A model generated the notes under the pieces. It did not search any database, was not told where the DNA came from, and saw only the letters and a program-made list of their open reading frames with translations. A program made the translations under genes and the position numbers. A stretch of DNA of 64,000 bases. It comes from Brachyspira hampsonii 30446 (lineage in GTDB: Bacteria > Spirochaetota > Brachyspiria > Brachyspirales > Brachyspiraceae). Shown here one piece after another: positions 16,415 to 61,483 of the stretch. The stretch covers positions 766,885 through 830,884 of the forward strand of contig NZ_JH994111.1 in assembly GCF_000316195.1 (NCBI RefSeq), read 5' to 3'. Position 1 is the stretch's first letter, and each line of letters opens with the position of its first letter.

Positions 16415-17320
16415 ATGAGAAAAAATTTAAATACTGCAAAAACTTTTAATCCTTTAAATGATTATTTTATGCGTTATATGTTTGCCAAGGAAGGACATGA
16501 ACATATATTAAAAAATCTCATTAATTCTGTGAGAATAGACTCTAATCAAGAGCCTTTTGAAGATATAGAAGTTTTGAATACTTTTAACTTAAAAGAAAAT
16601 GTTTTTGATAAAGAATCAATAGCAGATGTTAAGGCTAAAACTAAATCAGGCGAAACTATCATAATAGAAATACAAAGAATAGGTAATCATTCATTTATAT
16701 ATAGAAGTTTATACTATTGGGCTAAAAATTATTTTACAAATTTAAAATCTAAAGATATATATTCAGATTTAACACCTGTGATAAGTATTAATATTCTTGA
16801 TTTTAATTTGATAAAAGATATAGATAAGCCTCATAGCTGTTATTTTATTAAAGAGTTAGAAACCAATCATATATTAACTAATCATTTGGAGATTCATTTT
16901 CTTGAATTGAAAAAATTTGTTAATAATAATAATTTATATAAAGATTTATCAGATTGGTTTGAGTTTTTAAATTCAAAAGATAAATTGGAGGATACTATGG
17001 AAATATTAGTGAAGAAAAACCCTATAATGAAAGAAGTATATGATGAATATAATAAATTTGTTAATAGCAATGATTTGTATAATGGATACACTAATTATGA
17101 GAGAGATTATTTTAATGTTCTAATGCTTAATGAAGAGCGTATAAAGGGTATTGAGGAAGGAATGAAAAAAGGTATAGAACAAGGTATAGAACAAGGTATA
17201 GAACAAGGAGAAAAAAATAAGGCATTATCTATAGCTAGAAGTCTTAAAAAATCAGGTTTGGATGTAAAATTTATAAGAGATAATACAGGATTAACTATAG
17301 AGGAAATAGATAAACTTTGA
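16415..17320 (+). CDS. Rpn/PD-(D/E)XK nuclease-family transposase-like protein
   Basis: The 301-aa protein belongs to the PD-(D/E)XK nuclease-family transposase group (PDDEXK_2/Rpn-like). It has FNPLNDYFMRYMFA at the N-terminus and a catalytic block IADVKAKTKSGETIIIEIQ (D...ExQ). An YYWAKNYF helix follows. The C-terminal part is charged, with a GIEQ repeat encoded by a 12-bp tandem repeat near 17170-17208. Rpn proteins are associated with RecA-independent recombination. There are no terminal inverted repeats around it. A decayed relative lies at 36284-37229. It appears leaderless. Confidence 0.8.
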   Translation: MRKNLNTAKTFNPLNDYFMRYMFAKEGHEHILKNLINSVRIDSNQEPFEDIEVLNTFNLKENVFDKESIADVKAKTKSGETIIIEIQRIGNHSFIYRSLYYWAKNYFTNLKSKDIYSDLTPVISINILDFNLIKDIDKPHSCYFIKELETNHILTNHLEIHFLELKKFVNNNNLYKDLSDWFEFLNSKDKLEDTMEILVKKNPIMKEVYDEYNKFVNSNDLYNGYTNYERDYFNVLMLNEERIKGIEEGMKKGIEQGIEQGIEQGEKNKALSIARSLKKSGLDVKFIRDNTGLTIEEIDKL

Positions 17321-36208: not shown

Positions 36209-36678
36209 ATATATATGGCAAACTTATTGACTGAAATATTTATAAATTGATTTTGGTCATTTTTAGTAGAACTTAAAACACTCTTATAGTTCTTCTATTT
36301 CTTCTACACTTATCCTGTATATTTAGAGATTGTATTAAAATCTACTTTATCTTTTTTCATATTTCTAGCCATAGATATTGCTTTATTTTTTTCGCCTTGT
36401 TCTATACCTTCTTCTTTGGCTTTTTTTAGATCTAATTCTATACTCCTATCAAAGAAATATGCATCTATTTCACGCTTTTTATATTTATCCATTACAGAAG
36501 TATTATTGACGAAAGTATGGCATTTCTTTTCAACTTCTTCAAATATAGTATTTTCTTTCATTAAAACAGACATATTTTCCCACTTAAAAAATTTTACCCA
36601 AGAAATAAATTCTTTATGTATATTGTCTAAATTTTCTCTTTCATTAATATCTTCTAAATTGAATTTAGGAAGTTCAAG

Positions 36679-36698
36679 GCACAGCCCACCTTCGGTGC
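36679..36698. repeat. GC-rich miniature hairpin insert, 20 bp
   Basis: GCACCGAAGGTGGGCTGTGC (minus strand) interrupts the frame between LHF and LELP of the pseudogene, where the intact relative reads IHFLELK without a gap. The CACC-GAA-GGTG core is a hairpin. Confidence 0.75.
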
Positions 36699-36974
36699 AA
36701 AATGTAATTTACAATGATCCGTTAGAATTTTATTATTGTTTAATTCTTTTAAAACATAACAGCTATGTACTTTATCTTCATCTGTTAATATAAAATTTGT
36801 AATATTTATACTTACAGTAGGTTTTAATTCATCATAAAAAGAACCTCTATTTACACTAGAACTATAATTATAAGCCCAATAATATAGAGTTCTTTTGATA
36901 AAATCTTCATTACCTCTAGCCTAAATTTCTATTAATACCGTTATTCCTGTTTCTGTAGTAGCCTTAATATCTAG

Positions 36975-36995
36975 GTGTCTGCCCACCTTCGGTGC
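36975..36995. repeat. GC-rich miniature hairpin insert, 21 bp
   Basis: The minus-strand block beginning GCACCGAAGGTGGGC encodes an extra APKVGRH between KESV and LDIKA. The intact relative reads KESIADVKA here. The first 15 bases are identical to the insert at 36679. Confidence 0.75.
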
Positions 36996-37235
36996 CACGG
37001 ATTCTTTTTCATCATAATTTTCTGCAATATTAAAAGGATTTAATATTTCTATCTTCTTAAAAGTTTCAAAATCTAAATCTTTAAATACTGCATTAATAAA
37101 GTTTAAAACTATATTTTCATTACCTGAATGCGAAAATAGATAGCGTATAAAATAGTCATTGATTCTATTTAAATTATCAACTGTAACAGGTTCATTTAAT
37201 ATTTGTTTTAATCTATCCAAATCTTTCATAGTATT

Positions 37236-56363: not shown

Positions 56364-57062
56364 ATGATAGATATAAATGTATGTTTTGCTTCAAATGATG
56401 CTTATGCTCCGTATATGGCAGCGGCAATAGCTTCTTTACTTTCAAATTCAAAAGATGATGAAAACATTAATATATATATAATATCTGAAAATATTAATAA
56501 TTCTAACATAGAAAAGATATTATCATTAAAGAAAATAAGAGAATGCCATATAGACTTTATTAAACCTAAAGAAGAAATTTTTAAATATATTTCAAAATAC
56601 AATATGAAAGCCAATTCCACTTGGTTTAGATTGTCTATTCCGTCATTAATACCAAATGCTGATAAGATAGTATATTTAGATGGCGATATGATAATTAATT
56701 CAAGTTTAAGAGAATTATTTTTAGATGATATGTCAGATTATTATGCTTATGTAGTAGAAGATCTTATGGATAAAATAAATGAAGTAAAAGCTTCTATAGG
56801 TTTTAGTAAATCAGATAAATATTTTAATGCAGGCTTCTTGATGATAAATAATAAACTTTGGATAAAAGATAATTTAGAAGATAAATTCTATAATACTATA
56901 GATAATATGCCTATATTTACATTTAAAGATCAGGATACGCTTAATTATTATTTAAATGGAAGAGTGAAATTTATAGATAAAAAATGGAATTTTTTGGATT
57001 CTAAATTTTGTCATGAATACACGATTAGTTGTGATATAAAAGATGTTAATATTATACATTAG
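56364..57062 (+). CDS. Glycosyltransferase family 8, 3'-truncated by a repeat element
   Basis: The 232-aa reading frame has GT8 motifs. INVCFASNDAYAPYMAAAI leads, the metal-binding DGD is at residues 96-98 (KIVYLDGDMII), and YFNAGFLMINNKLW and FKDQDTLNYYLNGRVKFID follow. GT8 proteins usually continue past the final ..VNIIH with a YxGxxKPW segment and 30-60 more residues. Here the frame stops exactly where the MITE begins: the TAG is the first three bases of the element. The missing C-terminus was not found beyond the element. Probably inactive. Confidence 0.8.
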   Translation: MIDINVCFASNDAYAPYMAAAIASLLSNSKDDENINIYIISENINNSNIEKILSLKKIRECHIDFIKPKEEIFKYISKYNMKANSTWFRLSIPSLIPNADKIVYLDGDMIINSSLRELFLDDMSDYYAYVVEDLMDKINEVKASIGFSKSDKYFNAGFLMINNKLWIKDNLEDKFYNTIDNMPIFTFKDQDTLNYYLNGRVKFIDKKWNFLDSKFCHEYTISCDIKDVNIIH

Positions 57063-57470
57063 ACTTGTTTCAAAACTCAATTTCTTAATACTTATAGTTT
57101 TTTAATTTAATATTTTTTTTAATTATAGTTGGGGCTTTGCTGCGAAGCACACAGTCGTGCACCGCTCTGCGTGCTTACGCAAAACCCCACTTCTTTTGCC
57201 GAATAGGCACCTACTCGGTGGTGACCCATACGAAGTACGCCTCGCTGTGCGTGCCGACGAAGTCCACCTTTGGTGTCGGCAGGCGAGAAGCATACGAAGT
57301 ACGCCTCACTGTGTGTGCCGACGAAGTCCACCTTTGGTGTCGGCAGGCGAAAGACTGCATATTTATATACTAAAATAATATGTTATAAAACATGTAAGAC
57401 ATTATTTTATAATTGACTATTACTAATTTTTTTATATATAATTTTGTCAAGTAGTTTTGAAACAAGTCTA
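57060..57470 (+). repeat. MITE-like element, copy C
   Basis: The 411-bp element has ends TAGACTTGTTTCAAAA and TTTTGAAACAAGTCTA, bounded by TA. AT-rich arms enclose a GC-rich centre (about 57130-57354) that includes two 64-bp tandem units (57227-57290 and 57291-57354), each with GTCCACCTTTGGTGTCGGC. CCCCACTTCTTTTG and AAAGACTGCATATT are shared with copies B and D. No transposase. Open frames inside are repeat artefacts. Confidence 0.88.
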
Positions 57471-57531
57471 TTAATATATTTTAAACTAATACCATTAATT
57501 ACCGTTAATATTTTATATATTTGGTGGTTTC

Positions 57532-60802: not shown

Positions 60803-60855
60803 AAATTTATTTTTTTGTTTAGCTATAATACAAGATTAAGTATATATTTTTATAT

Positions 60856-61237
60856 TAGACTTGTTTCAAAACTAAATTTATTAACATTTATAGTTTTTTA
60901 ATTTAATATTTTTTGATTATAGTTGGGGCTTTGCTGCGAAGCACACAGTCGTGCACCGCTCTGCGTACTTCGTAAAACCCCACTTCTTTTGTGACGCCTG
61001 TCCGCCTCGCTGTGCGTGCCTTTGGCAGGTGTGGCACATACGAAGTACGCCTCGCCGTGCGTGCCGACGAAGTCCACCTTTGGTGTCGGCAGGCGAAAGA
61101 CTGCATATTTATATATTAAAATAACAAATTATACAATATATAAAACATGTGATTTATTTAATAATTAATATTATATAATTTAGCATAAAATAAGAAACTC
61201 ATAAAATTATTTGTCAAGTAGTTTTGAAACAAGTCTA
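60856..61237 (+). repeat. MITE-like element, copy D
   Basis: The 382-bp element has ends TAGACTTGTTTCAAAA and TTTTGAAACAAGTCTA with TA borders, in the same orientation as copy C. Its left 100 bp or so is nearly identical to C. The GC-rich centre has one full 64-bp-type unit plus a diverged unit with GTGCCTTTGGCAGGTGTGG. It lies between the GT2 gene and cmk, so C and D bracket a 3.4-kb glycan cassette. Confidence 0.88.
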
Positions 61238-61483
61238 TTGTATTAATTTTATGTATATATTAAAATATAAGAAATTATTTGCAATTAAAATTTATTTTCT
61301 TTGAATTATTAAATTTATGATTATAGTTATTAGTATTATTTACACTAATAGTATACATTATTTATTAGAAAATATTTAAAAAATATAGTAAAGTTTGTTT
61401 TTTATTAAAATAAATATTTGCAAATTATAATTATTTATGATATACTCTATAGAAAATTATATTAATTAAAAAAAAGGTTATAG

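Follow-up and report, generated by a model that had tools for sequence, protein, structure and literature searches.

Double-hairpin units of about 21 bp, probably mobile, at fixed sites in PDDEXK_2 nuclease genes of Brachyspira

Results

The DNA analyzed was a 64,000-nucleotide stretch of the Brachyspira hampsonii 30446 genome (contig NZ_JH994111.1, positions 766,885 to 830,884), referred to here as the window; the source genome is AT-rich and comprises 3.04 Mb. Positions 36285-37229 (minus strand) were assigned by Pfam (PF12784) and paralogue alignments to a decayed gene for a PDDEXK_2 (Rpn-like) nuclease. The nearest paralogue that is intact (L020; G000:C4:670090-670935) is shorter by exactly 21 and 20 bp at two sites, where this gene contains two additional double-hairpin units on the minus strand. 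The 21-bp unit CACCGAAGGTGGGCAGACACC occupies 36974-36994 at site B (36994 to 36974 as read on the coding strand), where it is in frame and lies directly 5' of the conserved Asp of the D-I-K motif. The 20-bp unit CACCGAAGGTGGGCTGTGCC occupies 36678-36697 at site C, between LHF and LELP (36697 to 36678 on the coding strand), and causes a frameshift. The gene has a second lesion, a TAG codon at 36921-36923 inside the ExQ motif. The original prediction, that this pseudogene carries two extra GC-rich blocks of 20 and 21 bp, was confirmed; it had placed each of the correct blocks one base off, which is immaterial. The gene that it used for comparison, an intact PDDEXK_2 paralogue at 16415-17320 (plus strand; Pfam and paralogue alignments), is indeed empty at both sites, as it is at a third (site A, below), but L020 is the sharper reference.

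Both window units consist of two adjacent hairpins, the first of which is CACC-GAA-GGTG in each. The second hairpin is GGC-AGAC-ACC in the 21-mer, with one imperfect stem pair, and GGC-TGT-GCC in the 20-mer. The general layout is of two adjoining mini-hairpins of 11 and 10 nucleotides; the 21-mer consensus CACCGAAGGTGGGCAGACGCC is predicted to fold as ((((...))))(((....))), and its complement as the mirror image. Among 22 variants, 95.5% of stem cells were paired, compared to 89.3% in shuffles, and two-sided (covarying) changes were present in each of the two stems. Two perfect hairpins were found in 15 of 24 inserts, taken mostly from empty/filled comparisons, and in 0.8% of shuffles. Twenty of these 24 inserts were open in all six frames, compared to 41% of shuffles, a difference to be read with the preselection of in-gene inserts for one open frame. 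Fold z-scores of the single main 20- to 21-mers were modest (about −1 to −2, and near 0 for the nested unit described below), and the assignment of hairpins is therefore based on the covariation and shuffle tests.

The units are far too frequent to have arisen by chance. The sequence CACCGAAGGTGG (≤1 mismatch) occurred 5 times in the window, with 0.00 expected from shuffles, and the hairpin CRCCGAAGGYG was present in 50 copies in the source genome, compared to 0 for the reversed control. CACCGAAGGTGG was detected in 14 of 26 Brachyspira genomes and the 21-bp consensus (≤2 mismatches) in 16 of the 26, with 0 for the control in each case. An exact consensus search of 84,980 species returned 51 stretches with matches, 19 of them from Brachyspira; the others were single hits in unrelated genomes, as chance would produce. 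Judged from these searches, the unit family does not extend beyond Brachyspira, chance singletons aside. Genomes with more PDDEXK_2 copies also had more hairpins (rho 0.72), but shared ancestry confounds this relationship and it was not counted as evidence. Full-text searches of the open literature on repeats and hairpins in Brachyspira turned up no account of such units.

Occupancy was then surveyed in 136 distinct PDDEXK_2 genes from across the genus, with hand correction from the sequences. Site A (between EIL[TN]P and FN) was filled in 17 of the 136 genes, site B (before D-[VI]-K) in 21, and site C in 5 (also occupied in L038, L056, L060, and L079), in a collection whose loci were partly found via their insert. 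Two gene sets, from the source genome and from G018, were collected by protein similarity alone, and in these the inserts were either canonical or absent. Each site has its own sequence type: CGCCRAAGGCGGGCAGTCGCC at site A, mostly CACCGAAGGTGGGCAGACGCC at site B, and the 20-mer at site C. The 21-mer of site B recurs at the identical codon in a second pseudogene of the source genome and in many genes of other species. A further unit, CACGCAAGGTGGACAGATGTC, is nested between positions 12 and 13 of A-type and B-type units alike, giving nested 42-mers.

On the gene tree, the minimum numbers of occupancy changes were 12 for site A, 20 for site B, and 5 for site C, of which well-supported branches forced 6, 13, and 3, respectively. 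The 20 changes at site B equaled the mean for shuffled labels (20), so that filled genes cluster no more strongly than at random. Genes filled at site B had a mean identity of 63% in the flanks and 93% in the inserts, and the two were uncorrelated.

Two observations concern larger rearrangements in these genes. In L060 (approximately 1470-1570), the 20-bp unit lies at the junction of two PDDEXK_2 subfamilies, the 5' part belonging to one and the 3' part to the other, as if the unit were a former recombination point. In L074, L077, and L090 (approximately 1740-1900), the middle of the gene has been replaced by a shared segment that includes GC-rich sequence (TACGGTGCGGG...), possibly a larger related rearrangement.

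Comparison of close relatives revealed precise differences. L045 and L180 are 98.1% identical over 1324 nucleotides, with a length difference of exactly 42 bp located at ATAG^TTGAT; in further pairs of filled and empty orthologues, the difference is exactly 21 bp. In the empty/filled pairs of PDDEXK_2 and prophage genes, target bases were neither duplicated nor lost. The identity of such pairs spans 98 to 99.95%, and any single pair fits gain and loss alike. The expectation that precise insertions, including insertions within genes, would be polymorphic among near-identical relatives was borne out.

The units are also found outside the nuclease family. One prophage tail gene contains 21-bp double hairpins of several kinds, inserted in either orientation, one of them nested in another, and each is present or absent between orthologues. 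The prophage contigs L296 and L302 have 3 mismatches in 6266 aligned bases (6263/6266 matching) and differ by one exact 21-bp unit; the same site is filled by slightly different units in L066 and L003. A GC-rich block of the double-hairpin kind is present in the prohead protease gene of L002. The tail gene had no match among phage and plasmid records, and the nested unit was absent from viral contigs. In galE of B. catarrhinii, an otherwise ordinary UDP-glucose epimerase gene, an in-frame candidate 21-bp unit (RQRRADA) was noted at L065:317-338.

The proposed likeness of the hairpin core to modules of MITEs proved correct: CACCAAAGGTGGACTTCGTC is itself a related 20-bp double hairpin, with three minus-strand copies in the window, two in the same MITE core (57256-57275 and 57320-57339) and one in another MITE (61066-61085). 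The MITE-like elements concerned (57052-57472 and 60848-61239) are bounded by terminal inverted repeats (TAGACTTGTTTCAAAAC...), and their GC-rich cores are pieced together from hairpin bricks in mosaic fashion. Eleven further MITE-like copies in the genome contain CACCGAAGGCGGACAGGCGTC in the core, with variable neighbors; these cores, too, are mosaics of related hairpins. Terminal inverted repeats and target duplication define MITEs; the 21-mers show neither, whereas the terminal inverted repeats are present in the larger elements (57 and 61 kb).

In many filled PDDEXK_2 genes, the reading frame is open over the full length. Units of 21 bp preserve it and seldom contain a stop in any frame, whereas the 20-mers at site C shift the 3' part of the gene into another frame, in many cases reaching a stop at once. 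Outside the inserts, dN/dS for L055 and L059 (both sites filled today) was 0.06, within the range of the empty pairs, and several filled genes look selectively constrained. In structure models (pLDDT of 61 and 73), the inserts were predicted to be low-confidence loops, with sites A and B placed near the nuclease core; a fold search with these models returned weak restriction-nuclease matches only. Most likely, the units do not serve the nuclease but are selfish or close to neutral, and the protein tolerates them as 7-residue loops.

Discussion

Comparison of genes and genomes suggests, with a probability of about three in four, that the two blocks are copies of a genus-wide family of mobile double-hairpin elements of approximately 21 bp. 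Exact gain or loss of unit length, recurrent targets, both orientations, and nesting were all demonstrated. The original prediction of a tiny unit inserted twice holds insofar as the unit is precise and behaves like a mobile one; its insertions, however, are not scattered but occur at fixed sites, which differ in the sequence type that they contain. Because the hairpins and the lack of target duplication fit a folded single strand, such a strand would be the substrate. The unit would move, or be copied from a homologue that already has it, into a small preferred target; the lagging strand and repair gaps are possible places of entry. Short-tract allelic recombination may help to spread filled sites inside a gene subfamily. 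Units of 3n length with open frames persist in working genes, and the 20-bp variant breaks the frame. The site-specific unit sequences argue against free transposition and are expected under copying from a filled homologue, which accounts for them better.

Two candidate mobilizers were unsupported by profile searches. The Y1 (IS200-like) transposase (PF01797) was found in 0 of 26 Brachyspira genomes, compared to 5 of 14 control genomes, and no RVT_1 reverse transcriptase was found in the source genome; reverse transcriptases do not follow the distribution of the units.

The units may instead have spread solely by gene conversion or allelic recombination among filled and empty PDDEXK_2 copies, with no present transposition. 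This is possible but doubtful as the whole explanation, and as a claim on mode it overlaps the mobile-element reading, so that the confidences in the two need not sum to one. Distant paralogues have site-specific unit sequences in common, and occupancy of site A is positively associated with that of site B (odds ratio, 5.25; P = 0.006). The A-B segments of L055 and L043 are closer to those of other genes than to that of the nearest empty gene, in a comparison with one misaligned row (L040) that inflates the A+B figure. There is also a parallel in yeast mitochondria, where GC clusters have been proposed to spread by recombination or conversion. They are reported as recombination hotspots (PMC4478555). 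On the other hand, the flanks of the junctions are subfamily specific, so that conversion tracts would have to be almost exactly unit sized, and prophage tail genes contain many different units at many sites.

A more speculative extension of the mobile-element reading, and one that we regard as unlikely, is that the units "home": every site in the nuclease genes would have a dedicated unit, copied precisely into empty homologous sites even between paralogues whose divergence precludes ordinary recombination. The targets would adjoin catalytic codons of Rpn-like nucleases, the nucleases may do the cutting, and filling would alter or shield the gene.

Elements that are bypassed during translation exist in yeast mitochondria. 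GC-rich hairpins inside otherwise intact genes could suggest that here, too, the ribosome bypasses the units, or that they are cut from the RNA, leaving the gene product unchanged. L038 and L079 keep an open 3' frame past the frameshifting 20-mers of site C, and the 20-mer of L038 has itself mutated. Bypass would be needless, however, for the in-frame, stop-free units of sites A and B; at site C, the unit leads straight to a stop in several genes, and another nonsense codon is present in the window copy. We consider bypass very improbable.

The original prediction had held that the same blocks at the same positions in relatives would make them ancestral coding sequence; other PDDEXK_2 family members do carry such blocks, but descent from an ancestral coding sequence lost by many members was rejected as scarcely credible, since it would require at least 20 tree changes at site B, insert identity stays level as the flanks diverge, near-identical orthologues are empty without a scar, and units are present in unrelated phage genes too. 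Recurrent gain (or loss) is the conclusion drawn from the tree, the empty orthologues, and the insert and flank identities.

The host genes themselves resemble genes of the Rpn (recombination-promoting nuclease) family. They encode a PD-(D/E)XK domain and, in 16415-17320 and its paralogues L007 to L031, variable C-terminal four-residue repeats, (E[QK]G[IM])n, similar to those of RpnS, an antitoxin of E. coli (PMC10327210). The host family is PDDEXK_2 (PF12784) and not PF04754 (PMC5350276), and the match of the host nuclease to RpnA (PDB 7th0) was weak. These features suggest that the host genes, at approximately 20 copies per genome, are Rpn-type toxin-antitoxin nucleases.

The original prediction knew of no described mechanism for such insertions; comparable very small mobile repeats are known in other organisms. 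Cyanobacterial SDRs are dispersed, mobile, and approximately 20 to 25 bp long, and the Brachyspira units, at 20 to 21 bp with clean presence/absence, are similar in description, in a different phylum. In the account of Elhai et al. (2008) given in PMC4390886, SDR5 is a very small mobile repeat inserted precisely at a defined position of the short target HIP1, a precision that the units nested between positions 12 and 13 of other units resemble. RPEs of Rickettsia are palindromic and are tolerated in frame in protein genes, but they measure 105 to 146 bp with one long stem (PMC2229807); in-frame insertion is found here in open PDDEXK_2 and prophage genes, in units that are much shorter and have two short stems. 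Mitochondrial GC clusters and double-hairpin elements are likewise GC-rich hairpins in an AT-rich genome, sporadic, and merged and shuffled as units; they belong to an organelle rather than a bacterium, and AG or ACT direct repeats border the GC clusters (PMC4478555), whereas the Brachyspira units show no target duplication. The REP/RAYT and IS200/IS605 systems have similar short hairpins and insert without target duplication. Their Y1 transposase, however, was found in none of the 26 genomes, and the Brachyspira units are without the unpaired GTAG or CGTC tag (PMC3733652). The best reading is of a spirochete family of very small mobile double-hairpin elements that resembles SDRs, RPEs, and GC clusters in its working. 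To our knowledge, the use of a single coding site across many paralogues is not known from SDRs.

Neither an enzyme nor a classical end structure fits into such short mobile DNA, which therefore probes both the lower size limit of mobile DNA and the nature of the mover. The units would rank among the smallest mobile DNA pieces known, and their most unusual trait is that the unit sequence is particular to the gene site. Brachyspira offers clean material for study, with exact filled/empty pairs, fixed targets, a constant nesting position, and genes that apparently still work with an in-frame unit. Such elements would also explain in-frame insertions, in phage tail genes, nucleases, and perhaps galE, that would otherwise be taken for lineage-specific adaptations.
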